From Pelotomaculum schinkii (lineage in GTDB: Bacteria > Bacillota > Desulfotomaculia > Desulfotomaculales > Pelotomaculaceae), in NCBI RefSeq assembly GCF_004369205.1, contig NZ_QFGA01000001.1:496001-560000 (forward strand): a DNA stretch of 64,000 bases. The letters run 5' to 3'. Every line of letters begins with the position of its first letter. Position 1 is the first letter of the stretch. A model generated the notes under the pieces. It saw only the letters and a program-made list of their open reading frames with translations, was not told the DNA's origin and made no database searches. Below are positions 56,284-64,000 of this stretch, one piece after another. A program made the translations under genes and the position numbers.

Positions 56284-57348
56284 CTACAGTCCAGAGCAAC
56301 TCTTTTCATGCTGCAGCGTGTGGCCATAGCCGGCCCCCACGCGGCGTCCGGATTTTTCAACATCCATGACCGCCCTGGCGTAGCTTTCCTCCGGCGTATC
56401 GTTCAGACCGATTTTGCCCGGATAAATGGCGTAATCCTCCCGGTACTTGGCCGGTGTCATGTTTGGCATAATAACGTTGGCGCCACATTGTAAAACCTTT
56501 ACCCTGCCCAGCGGATCAATCGTCGCTGCCGATGTTGTCGCGGGCAGGTGCGCGCGCGGCATAGCCAGCCGGGCAACGGCCAGCGTCTTCAAGGTCATTG
56601 CCAAGGTCCCACCGGCCTCCCCGGCTAGAGGTGTCCGGCTGCTTGGTATAAAGGGACCGATTCCGGCCATTTCTATACCCATCCTGCGAAACAGCAGGAT
56701 ATCATCCGCCAGAGTTTCTAAAGTCTGCCCGGGCAAACCCACCATGTTGCCGGAGCCGACCTGGTATCCCAGCTCCGAGAGCCACCTCTGTCTTTCCAAT
56801 CGCTCTTCCAGGAATGTGCCTGGACGTAAGCGGGCAAAAAGGCGCGGGTCGCTTGTTTCATGCTTTAATAAATAGCGGTCCGCCCCGGCCTTCCTAAATA
56901 GGGTGTAATCCTGGCGGGAACGGTCCCCGACGGAAAGCGTGATCGCAACATCATTGTCCTTCTTGATGGCCCGGATAATTCCGGCCAGCATTTCTCCCGA
57001 ATAATACCCTTCCTCGCCTGATTGCAGCACGATGGTGCGACAACCAAGTGCAGCCGCCGCGCCGGCGCTCTCGATGATTTCCCAAGGAGGCATACGGTAC
57101 CTGGCAACTTCCAGGTTATCCTTGCGCAAGCCGCAATAGGAACAGTTCCTGGCACAGTGATTGGAAAATTCAATGATACCCCGCAAATGGATTTCATCCC
57201 CTACAAACCTGGCCCGCGTCTTATCTGCCAGATGAAAGAGGGCGATACTTTCCTCATCGTCCGCGCTGAGCAGAGCCACCAGGTCCTCCCTGGTCAGTTC
57301 CAGGAACTTGGCGGCACGCTCCAACACTTCCAAGAACTTTTTTCTCAA
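56284..57348 (-). CDS. hydE: [FeFe]-hydrogenase maturase HydE (radical SAM)
   Basis: Radical SAM enzyme of 354 residues with the cluster motif C65, C69 and C72 (NHCARNCSYCGLR), then RYRMPPWEII, LQSGEE and MVGLPGQT. HydE works on the dithiolate side of H-cluster synthesis. It is the last gene of the TM1266-aspA-hydF-hydE unit, 1 bp from hydF. HydG, the third maturase, is not in this window. Confidence 0.95.
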   Translation of the reverse strand: MRKKFLEVLERAAKFLELTREDLVALLSADDEESIALFHLADKTRARFVGDEIHLRGIIEFSNHCARNCSYCGLRKDNLEVARYRMPPWEIIESAGAAAALGCRTIVLQSGEEGYYSGEMLAGIIRAIKKDNDVAITLSVGDRSRQDYTLFRKAGADRYLLKHETSDPRLFARLRPGTFLEERLERQRWLSELGYQVGSGNMVGLPGQTLETLADDILLFRRMGIEMAGIGPFIPSSRTPLAGEAGGTLAMTLKTLAVARLAMPRAHLPATTSAATIDPLGRVKVLQCGANVIMPNMTPAKYREDYAIYPGKIGLNDTPEESYARAVMDVEKSGRRVGAGYGHTLQHEKSCSGL

Positions 57349-57349
57349 C

Positions 57350-58600
57350 TTAATTCACTCCAGTCTCAATTTCGTCCAGCAGCTGAAGCGCAGAGGGGAA
57401 GGGTGATAGAGCCCTCCTCAATATGCCGTGCACGTGGGCAATCAGCACCCCGTAATTTACCACCGGCGCCCCGGCGCTGTTGGCCTGTATAATCCGGTGC
57501 AGCATTTCCTTACGGTTAATCATGCAGGCCCCACAGTGAACAATCAGGTTGTACTGCCCCAGGTCAGCCGGCAGCGTATTTCCGCTGGACCAGTCGAAAT
57601 GCAGTTCTCCTCCCGCCTTTTGGCGCAGCCAGCGGGGAATTTTTACGGTGCCGATATCGTCCGATACCCGGTGGTGGGTGCAGGCCTCGGCAACAAGAAC
57701 ACGATCCCCGGGCTTCAATCTGTCAACTGCCATCGCCCCTGCCACCAGCGCCTCCAGATTCCCCTTGTAACGGGCAAACAGTATGGAAAATGAGGTCATC
57801 ATCACGTCTCCAGGAGTATCAGCGTCCACTTTCAAAAAAGCCTGCGAGTCCGTAACTACCAGCTTGGGTTTGGAGGAAAGCCCTGCCAACGCTCTCTTAA
57901 GTTCCCTTTCCTTGACTACCAGGGTAATGGCGTCATTATCCAGGAGGTCCCTGATAGTCTGCACCTGGGGCAGGATGATCCTGCCTTTGGGGGCTGCCAG
58001 GTCTATGGGAACTACCAGCACCACGGTATCGCCCGGGTCAATCAGGTCCCCGAGGATAGTTGGCGAGGTCCACTCCTTGGGCGCAGCCTTGATGATTTCC
58101 TTTTTTAAACCCTCGATGCCCAACCTGGTCACAGCGCTTACCGGCACAACCTTAATCCCCAGGATTTCCTCCACTGCCTCCGACCCGGCCTCCTGGTTAA
58201 GATCCATCTTGTTCAAGACTCCGACTACCGGCACTCCCTGCTCTGCGGCTTTCTTGATCAAATCCTTCTCATATTCCCCGGCGCCCTGTACCGGGTCGAT
58301 TACCAGGAGCATCAAGTCAGCCTTGTGAAGTACGGCAATTGTCTTCTGAATACGCAGGTCGCCCAGTTCGCCCACGTCGTCAATACCGGCTGTGTCAATT
58401 ATCACCACGGGACCTACCGGCAGGATTTCCATCGACTTGTAAACGGGGTCGGTAGTTGTGCCCGGAATGCTGGATACGATAGCGATTTCCTGGTTGGTCA
58501 ACGCGTTGATCAGGCTGGACTTGCCGGCATTGCGGCGGCCGAAAATAGCGATATGGAGCCTATTTCCCCGCGGTGTGTCATTTAAACTCCCCACACTCAT
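57350..58600 (-). CDS. hydF: [FeFe]-hydrogenase maturation GTPase HydF
   Basis: Scaffold that delivers the di-iron subcluster to the hydrogenase. The 416 residues comprise a GTPase domain (G1 GRRNAGKSSL near residue 21, G2/G3 PGTTTDP and DTAGIDD, G4 NKMD), a dimerisation domain and a C-terminal cluster domain. Its ligands are visible in EACTHHR (CxH) and HCGACM. It overlaps aspA by 4 bp. Confidence 0.96.
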   Translation of the reverse strand: MSVGSLNDTPRGNRLHIAIFGRRNAGKSSLINALTNQEIAIVSSIPGTTTDPVYKSMEILPVGPVVIIDTAGIDDVGELGDLRIQKTIAVLHKADLMLLVIDPVQGAGEYEKDLIKKAAEQGVPVVGVLNKMDLNQEAGSEAVEEILGIKVVPVSAVTRLGIEGLKKEIIKAAPKEWTSPTILGDLIDPGDTVVLVVPIDLAAPKGRIILPQVQTIRDLLDNDAITLVVKERELKRALAGLSSKPKLVVTDSQAFLKVDADTPGDVMMTSFSILFARYKGNLEALVAGAMAVDRLKPGDRVLVAEACTHHRVSDDIGTVKIPRWLRQKAGGELHFDWSSGNTLPADLGQYNLIVHCGACMINRKEMLHRIIQANSAGAPVVNYGVLIAHVHGILRRALSPFPSALQLLDEIETGVN

Positions 58601-60024
58601 CTTTTATCCCTGCCTTTTTTCAGGTATTTGGTCCCGGCCACACCCGGCCTGGTAAGTTCACCAGGAGTAAAAATAGCTGCCAGGTCTTCTGAGGTAAATA
58701 ATCCTGATTCTATGACGACTTCCCTTAAATTCTTGCTCTCCCGCCTGGCTTGCTTAACTAGTTCCGCAGCTTGACCGTAACCCAGGTGGGGAGTTAAGGC
58801 GGTAATAAAACCGTGGCTTTCTTCCAGCCAGCGACGGCACCTGGCCTCATCCGCCATGATCCCTTTAACACATTTTTCGTTTAAGATGTTAACCGCATTG
58901 ATCAGCATTTCCAAGGACTGGAGCAGGGTATGAGCAATGACCGGCATAAAGGCGTTCAATTCTAAACTACCCGCCGCTGCGGCTGCCGCAAGGACCTGAT
59001 CGTTGCCCATCACCTGGAAGGAAACCTGGGTAATCATTTCAGGAATCACCGGGTTTACCTTGCCTGGCATGATCGATGACCCGGCCTGTATTTCCGGCAG
59101 CTTGATTTCAGCCAGACCTCCGAGGGGGCCTGAGGAAAGAAGCCTCAGGTCACCGGCCATCTTGGCCAGGTTTACCGCCGCCGCTTTTAAAAGACCGGAC
59201 ACCTCCACGAAGACATCGGTATTCTGGGTCAGGTCTATGGTATTCTCAGAACGTGCTAAACCGTACCCGGTTATAGCTCGAAGTTCTTCAATAACTGAGT
59301 AGATATAATGAGGATTGGCGTTCAAACCCGTACCCACCGCAGTACCACCCAGGTTAACCTGACGCAGCCTCTCTTCGACCTTATAAAGGCGCCAGCGGTC
59401 TCTGGCAATGGCTTCGGCATAGGCGCTGAATTCCTGCCCCAGCGTAACCGGCACTGCGTCCTGCATCTCAGTGCGGCCAATTTTTAATATCCCTGCGAAC
59501 GACGCCTCTTTTTCCTGCAGGGCGCCCTGGAGATCAGCCAGTACCTCGCTGAGGTCCAGGACCCTGCCAATGGCGGCAACCCGCAGGGCGGTCGGATAGA
59601 CATCGTTTGTCGACTGGGATAAATTTACGTGCTCCAAAGGGTCAACCAGCAGGTAGTCCCCTTTTTGCCCCCTGAGGAGTTCTATGGCACGGTTGGCAAT
59701 CACTTCATTAACGTTCATGTTGGTGGATGTCCCCGCCCCGCCCTGAAAGGCATCAACAATAAACTGGTCGGACAGTCCACCGCCAGCTACCTCGCCTGCA
59801 GCCTTGACGATGGCTTCGCCAATCCTGCGGTCCAACAGTCCCGCGCTCATATTGGCCTCTGCCGCTGCCTGCTTGACCTGGGCCACCGCTCTGATTAGGA
59901 AGGGGTTTGTTTTAAATCCGGATACCGGAAAATTGCCGGCCGCACGAACGGTATGGATGCCGTAATAGGCTGCCTGTGGAACTTTTACTTCACCAAGCAT
60001 ATCCTTTTCAATGCGAAACTCCAC
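58597..60024 (-). CDS. aspA: Aspartate ammonia-lyase
   Basis: Fumarase/aspartase superfamily enzyme of 475 residues that converts aspartate to fumarate and ammonia. The signature loop GSSIMPGKVNPVIPE is present, with GGAGTSTNMNVNEVIANRA and LSQSTNDVYPTALR. aspA is a recurrent member of hydrogenase maturation clusters, since ammonium or fumarate metabolism has been tied to H-cluster dithiolate synthesis. It sits between TM1266 and hydF. Confidence 0.95.
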   Translation of the reverse strand: MEFRIEKDMLGEVKVPQAAYYGIHTVRAAGNFPVSGFKTNPFLIRAVAQVKQAAAEANMSAGLLDRRIGEAIVKAAGEVAGGGLSDQFIVDAFQGGAGTSTNMNVNEVIANRAIELLRGQKGDYLLVDPLEHVNLSQSTNDVYPTALRVAAIGRVLDLSEVLADLQGALQEKEASFAGILKIGRTEMQDAVPVTLGQEFSAYAEAIARDRWRLYKVEERLRQVNLGGTAVGTGLNANPHYIYSVIEELRAITGYGLARSENTIDLTQNTDVFVEVSGLLKAAAVNLAKMAGDLRLLSSGPLGGLAEIKLPEIQAGSSIMPGKVNPVIPEMITQVSFQVMGNDQVLAAAAAAGSLELNAFMPVIAHTLLQSLEMLINAVNILNEKCVKGIMADEARCRRWLEESHGFITALTPHLGYGQAAELVKQARRESKNLREVVIESGLFTSEDLAAIFTPGELTRPGVAGTKYLKKGRDKR

Positions 60025-60040: not shown

Positions 60041-60292
60041 CTAACCTTTTGTCAATAGCGCTGTTTTTACTTTAACTCCGGTAAGGCTGCCAAGCTTACC
60101 GGTCATAGCGCCAATCTCGTCCGTAGATCCGTCCACAATCAGGGAGATAATCGAGAGATTGCGGTCCCGGTAAGGGACCCCCATCCTCCCCACAATCATT
60201 TCTCCATACTCACTCAGGACCGTGTTAATCCGGCGGGAAGCATCCTCTCTGCTTTCCACCACGATCCCGATCACACCAATGCGCCTGTCCAT
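60041..60292 (-). CDS. Iron-only hydrogenase system regulator (TM1266 family)
   Basis: The 83-residue ACT-like (NikR C-domain-like) protein starts DRRIGVIGIVVESREDASRRIN and has IVGRMGVPYRDRNLSIISLIVDG, matching the TM1266 family found with hydEFG. It may bind a small ligand and regulate hydrogenase genes. First gene of the operon, 17 bp before aspA and about 215 bp after the probable transcription start. Confidence 0.92.
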   Translation of the reverse strand: MDRRIGVIGIVVESREDASRRINTVLSEYGEMIVGRMGVPYRDRNLSIISLIVDGSTDEIGAMTGKLGSLTGVKVKTALLTKG

Positions 60293-60368
60293 ATGAATCC
60301 CCCTATATTAAACTTGCCACGGCGACCTGCGGGCTTACAACGCAAACATAACCTTCAACAATAATAAA

Positions 60369-60395
60369 GCCCTTTTCTCTTGTGCGAAAAAGGGC
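60369..60395 (-). terminator. Leader terminator upstream of the hydrogenase maturation operon
   Basis: Minus strand GCCCTTTT, an 11-nt loop and AAAAGGGC, followed by TTTATTATTG, 77 bp before the TM1266 start and well inside the leader. It overlaps the 3' arm of the putative aptamer stem. Confidence 0.8.
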
Positions 60396-60508
60396 CTAAA
60401 AGTGCTGTCACTTCTCCTTGAGAGCAGGGGATTTCCCTTCTTCGCAGAATCTTTTTGACCCTCCGGGACGGTTTCGCCCGTACCCGTCAGGCTTATGAAT
60501 TTTTACTT
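60396..60508 (-). ncRNA. Structured leader RNA, candidate riboswitch of unknown class
   Basis: Between the promoter and the leader terminator the minus-strand RNA has a strong hairpin (GGGUACGG-GCGAAA-CCGUCCC with a UGAC/GUCA base), an A-rich linker, GAAGGGAAAUCCCCUGC, and AAGUG-ACAG-CACUU. AGGC at the 3' end can pair with GCCU at the 5' end, and this pairing would compete with the terminator stem. I could not match it to cobalamin, TPP, FMN, SAM, c-di-GMP, Moco, THF, ZTP or M-box consensus patterns. Confidence 0.6.
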
Positions 60509-60514
60509 GTAAAC

Positions 60515-60542
60515 ATTATACTCTTTATTGCCATAAAAACAA
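60515..60542 (-). promoter_or_regulatory. Promoter of the hydrogenase maturation operon
   Basis: Minus strand TTGTTT (60537-60542), a 16-bp spacer and consensus TATAAT (60515-60520). Transcription would begin near 60508 and run through the structured leader. Confidence 0.6.
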
Positions 60543-60790: not shown

Positions 60791-62119
60791 CTACTTTTCC
60801 ATAGCTGTCTTGAAGGAGTGGCGCGCAGCCTCCACTGTCTCGTCGATTTCGCCGTCGCCGTGGACTAAGGACATAAATGCCGCCTCAAACTGCGAGGGAG
60901 CCAGGTAGACCCCCTGTTCCAGCATCGCCTTAAAGAAGGCCGCATATTGAGCAGTATTGGAAGTACAGGCTGAAGCATAGTCCTTAACGTCTTGCCCGGT
61001 GAAGAAACAACACAACATTGAGCCAACCCGGTTAAGACACACCTCTGCCCCGGCTTCCCCGGCAGCCTCGGCCAGACCGCTCGCAAGGGCTTGAGAACTC
61101 TGTTCTAGCTGCTCGTATACTCCCGGTTGCCGGATTATCTCCAGGGTGGCAATGCCGGCGGTAACAGCCAGGGGATTGCCTGACAGGGTCCCCGCCTGGT
61201 AGACCGGACCGGATGGGGAAACTCTCTCCATGATTTCACGTTTTCCGCCATAAGCCCCTACTGGAAGCCCACCGCCTATGATTTTACCCAGGCAGGTTAA
61301 ATCAGGAGTAATGCCGTAAAGCTGTTGGGCTCCCCCATAGGCGACACGAAATCCGGTCATGACCTCATCAAAAATGAGAAGGCTCCCGTAAGTGCTGGTA
61401 AGGTTGCGTAGACCCTCCAAAAACCCTGGGGCCGGCGGGATGACCCCCATGTTGCCGGTAACCGGCTCGACAATGACTGCCGCGATATCCTCGCCTTCCA
61501 GCTTGAAAATTTCGTTAAGACCGTCGAGGTCGTTGTAATTGGCAATAATGGTGTTAACCGCCGAGCCGGGCGGTATTCCAGGGCTGGTGGGAGTCCCCAG
61601 GGTCAAAGCGCCGGAACCTGCTTTGATCAGCAAAAAGTCGGCATGCCCGTGGTAGCACCCTTCGAATTTAACAATTTTATTGCGTCCGGTGTACCCCCGG
61701 GCCAGCCTTAGAGCGCTCATGGTGGCTTCCGTCCCGGAGTTAACCAGACGGACCATATCTATCGAGTGAACAGCTTCCACAACCATGGCAGCGAGGATAT
61801 TTTCTAATTCCGTTGGGGCTCCGAAACTGGTGCCGACCTCCCGCAGACATCTTTCCAGAGCTTCAATTACATGGGGATGCCGGTGGCCCAGGATTAAAGG
61901 GCCCCAGGAACCCACATAATCGATATATGAATTGCCATCAGCGTCATAAATATGCGCGCCTTCACCCCGGCTGATAAAGACGGGATTTAAACCAACAGAT
62001 TTAAAAGCTCTGACCGGGCTATTTACACCGCCGGGAATGATCTTAAGCGCTTCTTCGTAAAGAGCAACTGATTTGGAGAAGTCTTTTGGCACTTTTAGAA
62101 AACCCCTTTCCTTATTCAA
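60791..62119 (-). CDS. hemL: Glutamate-1-semialdehyde 2,1-aminomutase
   Basis: PLP enzyme of 442 residues making 5-aminolevulinate in the C5 pathway. Motifs: [45 protein letters not shown] and the PLP lysine in [16 protein letters not shown]. It supplies precursor for both the corrin genes at the other end of the window and the Ahb heme route. The start overlaps the ahbB stop by 8 bp. Confidence 0.96.
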
Positions 62120-62591
62120 AGTAGCGCATGCTGCTTTTTTTCAATTCAGCAGTGCTGAATAAAAGACGGTATTTTTCCAAGCCTGCGGCCCTGGAAATTC
62201 TCTCCGCCACCTGCAAACATTCCTCTCTGGTCTGTCCATGCACCATCGTATACAGATTGAAAGGCCACCTGGGGTGGCGGGGCCGCTGGTAGCAATGGGT
62301 TACCTCTTCAAAAGCGGCCATAATCCTGCCGGCCTCATGAACCTGACTGTCAGGAACATCCCATACTACCATGGCGTTGGCCACGTAACCGAGATCCTGA
62401 TGGCGCACGGTAGCCCCAAAACGCCTGATCAGGCCTTGGTCAACAAGCCTTTTTACGTCCATTATGAGGGTCTCCTCGGACATCCCCAAAACTTGTGCCA
62501 GGGCCTGGAAAGGACGGCTAACCAACGGCAAGCCCTCCTGTAGAACCCGAACTATTTGTCTGTCCTGTTCGCTCAGCTCCAAAACTAACAC
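62112..62591 (-). CDS. ahbB: Siroheme decarboxylase subunit beta (AhbB)
   Basis: Lrp/AsnC-like protein of 159 residues with an N-terminal winged helix ([23 protein letters not shown]) and a C-terminal ferredoxin-like domain with [42 protein letters not shown]. The histidines in the [14 protein letters not shown] segment are those implicated in siroheme decarboxylation. With AhbA it converts siroheme to 12,18-didecarboxysiroheme. It lies 2 bp after ahbA. Confidence 0.93.
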
Positions 62592-62592
62592 C

Positions 62593-63048
62593 TCAGTCGA
62601 GATCGAAGTTCACCCTTATTTTATAAATATTTTCAGCGGGAAAGGTCATGATTTCTTGTATACCGGTACGTTCCCTGATCCCTTTTAAAGTCTCCGCCAG
62701 CTTTTCCTCGGAAGGAGCCAGCAGTGTAAACCACATATTGATTGGGTCTTCTCTCAAGTAGTTGTGGGTCACTCCAGCAAATGAATTGACCACTTTAGCC
62801 ACCTCATCGATGCGCTCTGCAGTGACCTCCATGGCACATAGAGCCCCACTGTAACCCAGTTTCCTGGAATCAAAAACCCCGCCGAGGCGGCGGATGACCC
62901 CGTTTTCAATCAGCAGCCTTAGCCGTGCGATTACCTCAGTTTCACTGAGGCCCAGCACTTCTCCTACCTCCCGGTAGGGTTCGGGAACAATAGGCAAACT
63001 GGTCTGGATAAGCCTGAGAAGCTTCCTGTCCGTCTCGTCAAACACCAT
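62593..63048 (-). CDS. ahbA: Siroheme decarboxylase subunit alpha (AhbA)
   Basis: About 151 residues, same architecture as AhbB: FDETDRKLLRLIQTSLPIVPEPY, GVFDSRKLGYSGALCAMEV, THNYLREDPINMWFTLLA. The start is placed at the ATG at 63048, where the family begins, with GGGGATATT upstream. The frame extends to 63084 but overlaps the radical SAM gene. The partner of AhbB in the heterodimer. Confidence 0.93.
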   Translation of the reverse strand: MVFDETDRKLLRLIQTSLPIVPEPYREVGEVLGLSETEVIARLRLLIENGVIRRLGGVFDSRKLGYSGALCAMEVTAERIDEVAKVVNSFAGVTHNYLREDPINMWFTLLAPSEEKLAETLKGIRERTGIQEIMTFPAENIYKIRVNFDLD

Positions 63049-63050
63049 GT

Positions 63051-64000
63051 TCAATATCCCCTTCGCCCGTGGTAGATACACCACGGCTCTTCAGCCATAT
63101 AGTCACCGTGGTAAAAGTAGGCACGGGCCCGACAGCCGCCGCATACCTTTTGGTACCGGCAGCTTCCGCAGCCTCCCTGGTAGTCCTCGGTGCGGAGCTT
63201 TTTAAATATCTCCGCTTCCCGCCAGATTTCCCCAAAGGGTGTTTCTCGGACATTCCCGGCCGGCAAATTCAGGTAGGCGCAGGGTTGCACAATACCCTTG
63301 GGACTGATGATGCAATAAGATATCCCGGCCAGACAGCCCTTGCTGAAACGGGTCTTGACCCCCATCTGGTCAGCAACGCGCATAAACTGTGGGGCGCAGG
63401 TCGGTTTCAACTCGATTTTAACTTCAGCCTGTTTTTGCATAATCCGGCGCAAGAGCTCCTCATACTGTTCAGACCTGAGCGATTCGGCCTCAATATTAAC
63501 AGCGCGCCCGGTAGGGACCAGAAAAAAGATGTGGTGGCCAATGGCTCCCATCTTCACAGCAAAATCGGTCAGCTTTTCCACTTCCGGCATATTCCAGTCC
63601 ATCACTGTGGTATGGAGCTGAAAAGGCAGTCCGGCCTCGCGGCAGGCCAGCATGCCGTCGACCGCGCCCTGCCAGGCGCCTGGTGTGGCGCGAAAATCAT
63701 CGTGACGCACGGAGTCGACACTGTCGAGACTGATGCCCATGGCCATCGCCCCGGCTTTCTTCAGCTTCTGAGCTGTTCCCCCCGTAATCAGGGTACCGTT
63801 GGTCCCGAATACAGGCCGCAGACCCATCTCGCGAGCGTGGCTCACCAGATCAAAAATATCATCTCGCATCAACGGCTCGCCACCGCTGAATATCATTATT
63901 TTAAAACCTGCCCCGGCAATCTGGTCAATCAGGGCCAGGCCTTCCTCAGTGCCGAGCTCCTCTTCGGCCTTGGCCCCGGCATCCCGGTAGCAGTGCTTGC
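63051..64000 (-). CDS. Radical SAM/SPASM enzyme of siroheme-to-heme conversion (AhbC or AhbD), partial
   Basis: The frame runs through the window edge, so the true start and first cluster cysteine are missing; visible from 64000 is KHCYRDAG, the end of the CX3CX2C motif. MIFSGGEPLMRDD and GISLDS follow. The C-terminal auxiliary cluster region has cysteines in CLAGISYC, IVQPCAYL and GGCGSCRYQKVCGGCRARAY. It belongs to the NirJ/AhbC/AhbD group; I cannot tell deacetylase (AhbC) from heme synthase (AhbD) from this part. It lies directly upstream of ahbA. Confidence 0.85.
   Translation of the reverse strand, partial: KHCYRDAGAKAEEELGTEEGLALIDQIAGAGFKIMIFSGGEPLMRDDIFDLVSHAREMGLRPVFGTNGTLITGGTAQKLKKAGAMAMGISLDSVDSVRHDDFRATPGAWQGAVDGMLACREAGLPFQLHTTVMDWNMPEVEKLTDFAVKMGAIGHHIFFLVPTGRAVNIEAESLRSEQYEELLRRIMQKQAEVKIELKPTCAPQFMRVADQMGVKTRFSKGCLAGISYCIISPKGIVQPCAYLNLPAGNVRETPFGEIWREAEIFKKLRTEDYQGGCGSCRYQKVCGGCRARAYFYHGDYMAEEPWCIYHGRRGY

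Follow-up and report, generated by a model that had tools for sequence, protein, structure and literature searches.

A structured leader RNA with repeated CUGA/RAGG modules upstream of the [FeFe]-hydrogenase maturation genes of Pelotomaculum schinkii and related anaerobes

What controls the [FeFe]-hydrogenase maturation genes of Pelotomaculum schinkii? In the window analysed here (64,000 nucleotides (nt) of contig NZ_QFGA01000001.1, positions 496,001 to 560,000), an operon for a TM1266-family protein, AspA, HydF and HydE is preceded by a leader of about 110 nt between a -10 box and an intrinsic terminator. The layout given in a preliminary description of this DNA, namely a promoter (TTGTTT-16-TATAAT), a structured leader and a terminator, all upstream of the four genes, is seen in the sequence, and the terminator was also found by a terminator scan. 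We conclude that the leader is almost certainly a cis-regulatory transcription attenuator of the hyd maturation genes. The fuller proposal, that it belongs to a new family of cis-regulatory leader RNAs which attenuates these genes under autoregulation by TM1266, has, taken as a whole, about an even chance of being correct. From the earlier wording, "riboswitch or attenuator", we retain the structured transcription attenuator before the maturation operon; the riboswitch label is not established.

The P. schinkii leader folds better than all of 200 shuffled sequences (z = -3.6). What is conserved is a CUGA/RAGG module that occurs repeatedly, first in a 5' hairpin, CCUGA-stem-RAGGG, followed by a 3' hairpin of pseudo-two-fold symmetry. 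Across the sequences that precede about 110 TM1266 genes, the general form of the 3' hairpin is YYCU-G(C/A)-NNNN-A-RGG-loop-CCU-GA-N'N'N'N'-AA-GGRG, so that the CUGA/RAGG element occurs twice, face to face across a variable four-pair (N4) helix, for example, GACG/CGUC, GCAC/GUGC, UAAU/AUUA, CUUA/UAAG or CCAA/UUGG. The 5' hairpin represents a third copy, detected in 34 of 68 leaders and in none of the antisense or shuffled controls, and each leader carries two to four of these symmetric sites. The covariation in homologous leaders whose absence, according to the preliminary description, would have refuted a riboswitch is present in the stems: with segmentation done partly by hand and with related sequences as rows, we counted 33 double-change cells in the core versus 13.9 +/- 2.9, 119 of 172 pairs in the N4 helix versus 81.2 +/- 4.7 after shuffling, and 102 of 120 pairs in the 5' stem versus 60.5 +/- 4.8 after shuffling. 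Positions 3 and 4 of the N4 helix lie outside every search model. The leader thus contains the conserved structured domain with covariation that is expected of a riboswitch. The segmented modules do not conform to a kink-turn, as CCU-GA/RA-GGG lacks a three-nucleotide bulge 5' of the tandem G-A pairs. A leader peptide was also considered and rejected: AAGGAG resembles a Shine-Dalgarno sequence, but the alignment has no start codon at a conserved place after it.

The same RNA recurs well beyond P. schinkii. By blastn against 60 relatives, the leader was found in congeners (80-89% identity) and in much of the family (about 70-80%), usually beside TM1266. A covariance model of 14 blastn-found leaders (R1) had matches in 40 of 113 genomes of the class, extending to other families at E-values (rough for covariance models) of 1e-6 to 1e-2; the distant copies that we inspected precede TM1266, aspA or hydF, even though genes played no part in the search, and one copy (L093) precedes an NMT1-type ATP-binding cassette (ABC) transporter. 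A core model (R2), applied to 398 genomes of the phylum, revealed further copies before TM1266, aspA, hydG and another ABC transporter. A degenerate, likewise gene-blind pattern gave 21 matches in 84,980 species genomes. Of these, 16 lie immediately before TM1266 or aspA and come from Desulfotomaculum copahuensis, Desulfofundulus, Desulfovirgula, Ammonifex, several metagenome-assembled genomes (MAGs) and a Caldiserica MAG. Five pattern matches and four model matches with no adjoining hyd maturation genes were judged to be due to chance. Among TM1266 leaders, a module was found in 33 of 110, versus none in antisense, and a stringent generalised pattern in 24 of 108, versus none in antisense or shuffled sequence.

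Almost always, then, the RNA lies before TM1266, aspA or hydF/hydG; in two genomes it lies before an NMT1-type ABC transporter. In G133 (L136, G133:C1:956000-974000), the order is module, ABC permease, ATPase, NMT1-type binding protein, TM1266, hydE and hydF, and in G111 (L138, G111:C32:1-4022) a module directly precedes a similar NMT1/SsuA-type transporter, which could be a hint of an imported H-cluster precursor. The hydrogenase structural gene does not appear to be a target, as several loci have hydA on the upstream side of the module and no module was seen preceding this gene. Four loci, in as many genomes, have a second module between TM1266 and aspA in addition to the one before TM1266, and two other loci have tandem module copies before TM1266. 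At ten loci of phylum genomes, TM1266 follows a coiled-coil, DivIVA-like coding region and has no adjacent module.

The RNA appears to be undescribed in Rfam 15 and in the RNA-discovery literature that we examined. A search with all 4227 Rfam 15 families at a permissive threshold returned only two sub-threshold matches for the leader. The better of these, PyrG_leader (RF02371), scored 26.8 bits against a gathering score of 65 and covered the terminator and a short stretch before it, whereas the conserved CUGA/RAGG modules fall outside the RF02371 model; six distant homologues of the leader matched no regulatory Rfam family. This outcome favours the preliminary description, which named an Rfam hit to a known class as the result that would remove the novelty. 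The motifs of Weinberg et al. 2017 should be in Rfam already. Neither hydrogenase nor hyd genes are mentioned in the RNA-discovery literature and the riboswitch review examined.

How could such a leader control transcription? A terminator stem follows most copies, usually within 8-32 nt. The 5' strand of the 3' hairpin (strand A, UGCGAAGAAGGG) is complementary to the 5' arm of the terminator (strand B, CCCUUUUUCGCA), with a cognate duplex of -18.7 kcal/mol in the P. schinkii leader. Across loci, pairing of A with its cognate B gives stronger duplexes than non-cognate pairing does (p = 0.004), and at L091, L105 and L099 the pairing has been kept though both strands have changed in sequence; at several loci it is the 3' strand of the hairpin that pairs with the terminator arm instead. 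Strands A and B take the place of the GCCU/AGGC pairing proposed in the preliminary description, which we reject for lack of conservation among relatives: its leading G varies (ACCUGA, AACUGA, AUCUGA), and its CCU is part of the conserved local hairpin CCUGA-stem-RAGGG. In predicted folds, the antiterminator (-48.4 kcal/mol) and the hairpin plus terminator (-47.9 kcal/mol) are only 0.5 kcal/mol apart and hence nearly isoenergetic. For the transcript as it stands before synthesis of the terminator, the predicted fold contains both hairpins. The leader is therefore predicted to have mutually exclusive terminator and antiterminator states. L107 and L128 have no fitting terminator, and there the hairpin GGGG occupies the expected Shine-Dalgarno position of hydG or TM1266, so in a few genomes the leader RNA probably blocks translation. 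Since the terminator form and this ribosome-site form agree, folded modules would correspond to an operon that is off; given two nearly isoenergetic states and competing strands, stabilisation of the modules should switch expression off.

In the mechanism that we propose, strand A would pair with strand B when no effector is present, the terminator would be blocked and TM1266-aspA-hydF-hydE would be transcribed, while an effector that keeps the modules folded would let the terminator form and shut the operon off. The least certain step is the identity of the effector: this may be TM1266 itself, the product of the first gene, which would then exert feedback control and might do so with a small molecule held in its NikR_C-like fold. 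TM1266 is preferred over a riboswitch because of the repeated symmetric sites, the position of the RNA before TM1266 and the presence of TM1266 in every carrier genome checked. It is the first gene in most module-bearing operons and thus has the placement expected of a regulator, in the controlled operon or in all carriers. A module precedes hydG, with TM1266 encoded elsewhere, in G348, G381 and G151; the G151 arrangement, in which a terminator follows the module, is what action of TM1266 in trans would be expected to produce. A small number of invariant bases that recur around free helices, in a roughly two-fold symmetric arrangement, would be expected of the target of an oligomeric protein. 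TM1266 has a solved relative with four chains (2nzc) and a NikR_C-like domain (PF21699 and PF08753 matches), and its invariant residues R4, N23, R36 and D58, together with a TGKLG loop, would allow it to bind RNA or a ligand, although they are not decisive.

Several points weigh against this proposal. Both the direction of control and the effector are read from sequence, many TM1266 genes have no recognisable module, and a few copies of the module have no clear A:B pairing. Co-occurrence of TM1266 and the module is weak evidence because most HydG-positive genomes carry TM1266 anyway; at the hydG loci of TM1266-negative genomes the module was found in none of 21, versus 2 of 19 in the comparison group, a contrast that is not significant in so small a group. 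We are not aware that TM1266 or any NikR_C or ACT-like domain binds RNA, and in the literature we found TM1266 named as a putative hydrogenase regulator and no tested function for it.

The strongest competitor is a true riboswitch, in which the modules themselves bind an H-cluster-linked small molecule or ion, such as iron, ammonium, aspartate, an Fe-CO-CN intermediate or a compound taken up through the NMT1-type transporter, and the stabilised hairpins cause termination with no need for a protein. The leader has the layout of an aptamer followed by an expression platform, and its regulon comprises one biosynthetic pathway together with, in G133 and G111, an importer. AspA, whose gene is often found in hyd operons, can supply ammonium for the bridging ligand of the H-cluster (PMC11736057). 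However, unlike in most metabolite pockets, there are few conserved bases, which recur and are divided by freely varying helices with pseudo-two-fold symmetry, the number of modules differs from copy to copy, and no carrier lacking TM1266 was found among those checked. We regard a riboswitch as possible but doubtful, and its narrower form, in which a precursor for H-cluster assembly, or a compound taken up for it, is sensed directly by the repeated, pseudo-symmetric CUGA/RAGG pockets, as rather less likely still. The symmetric modules and the presence of TM1266 in all checked carriers would be explained no less well by an autoregulatory leader to which a protein binds.

It is improbable that TM1266 is a bystander and that the modules respond to a different protein or to a physical signal, for instance temperature or RNA polymerase pausing: the role of TM1266 as effector rests on association, and near-isoenergetic RNA states could be tipped by many cues, but the modules keep to hyd genes, in operons that mostly begin with TM1266, and a generic cue does not predict such a restriction. 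That the promoter leader and terminator are ordinary, lack a regulatory fold and are similar among relatives through shared ancestry only is very hard to uphold. Strong conservation by blastn is indeed limited to the family, but the helices covary in many families and the modules are enriched in the sense strand only, which contradicts this view.

The features of the locus are collected in the table, with genes assigned by NCBIfam profiles. The TTGTTT promoter fell below the cut-off of a consensus promoter scan of the window and is absent from its results; a TATAAT-like box occupies the same place in the leaders of relatives, and the transcript would be expected to start near 60508. Covariance model R3 scores the 3' hairpin module in the window at 50.4 bits.

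Features of the TM1266-aspA-hydF-hydE locus in the P. schinkii window
Feature	Position in window	Strand	Basis
-35 box TTGTTT	60537..60542	-	sequence
-10 box TATAAT	60515..60520	-	sequence; 16-nt spacer after -35 box
5' hairpin module CCUGA-stem-GAGGG	60459..60491	-	pattern and stem covariation
3' hairpin module UUCU-GC-GAAG-AAGGG-loop-CCU-GC-UCUC-AA-GGAG, pseudo-two-fold symmetric	60414..60449	-	model R3, covariation
Switch strand A UGCGAAGAAGGG	60435..60446	-	complementary to strand B; alternative folds
Switch strand B CCCUUUUUCGCA, terminator 5' arm and loop	60383..60394	-	complementary to strand A; alternative folds
Intrinsic terminator, stem and U-rich tail	about 60365..60399	-	terminator scan; sequence
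TM1266-family protein, putative [FeFe]-hydrogenase system regulator (NikR_C-like)	60041..60292	-	TIGR03959 117.9 bits; PF21699, PF08753; 2nzc
aspA, aspartate ammonia-lyase family	58597..60024	-	NF008909 672.6 bits
hydF, H-cluster maturation GTPase	57350..58600	-	TIGR03918 585.4 bits
hydE, H-cluster radical S-adenosylmethionine (SAM) maturase	56284..57348	-	TIGR03956 321.5 bits

Only one convincing copy of the leader is present in the P. schinkii genome. The hydG gene (G000:C1:1396497-1397906) lies far from hydE and hydF, and no module was found in its neighbourhood; a further, weaker-scoring TM1266 paralogue (L146; G000:C3:461184-461405) has no module visible upstream. Upstream of the leader and on the same strand, the window contains hemL and the siroheme decarboxylase genes ahbB and ahbA (60791-63084), which point to the alternative heme route.

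With its modules, switch strands and terminator mapped, the leader RNA is a defined target, on which control of [FeFe]-hydrogenase maturation by TM1266 can be directly tested against control by a small molecule. It would also represent a new family of cis-regulatory RNA with members throughout Desulfotomaculum-type and related anaerobes, and it bears on how cells match H-cluster assembly to need. If the modules did form a riboswitch, the leader would be an RNA sensor for the synthesis of an organometallic hydrogenase cofactor, and to our knowledge none has been known before.

Among known systems, the glycine and guanidine-II riboswitches are tandem-module RNAs, and PyrR is a further protein-dependent autoregulatory attenuator. 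Like the glycine and guanidine-II riboswitches, the hyd leader has repeated recognition units within one leader, but it matches neither of them in sequence or structure in Rfam and its gene context is unrelated. Moco RNA (PMC2408646), an off riboswitch, likewise precedes genes for metal-cofactor biosynthesis and transport, but it serves another cofactor, whereas the hyd leader has no Rfam match, repeated pseudo-symmetric modules and only a putative effector. Compared with the TRAP, L10(L12)4 and PyrR systems, the RNA modules, the pathway and the protein are all different, TM1266 being only a candidate RNA binder. The hyd leader nevertheless resembles the trp leader bound by TRAP and the rplJL leader bound by L10(L12)4 (PMC3913778, PMC4538822) in its competing antiterminator and terminator folds, and the latter also in that L10 is encoded in the operon that it controls.
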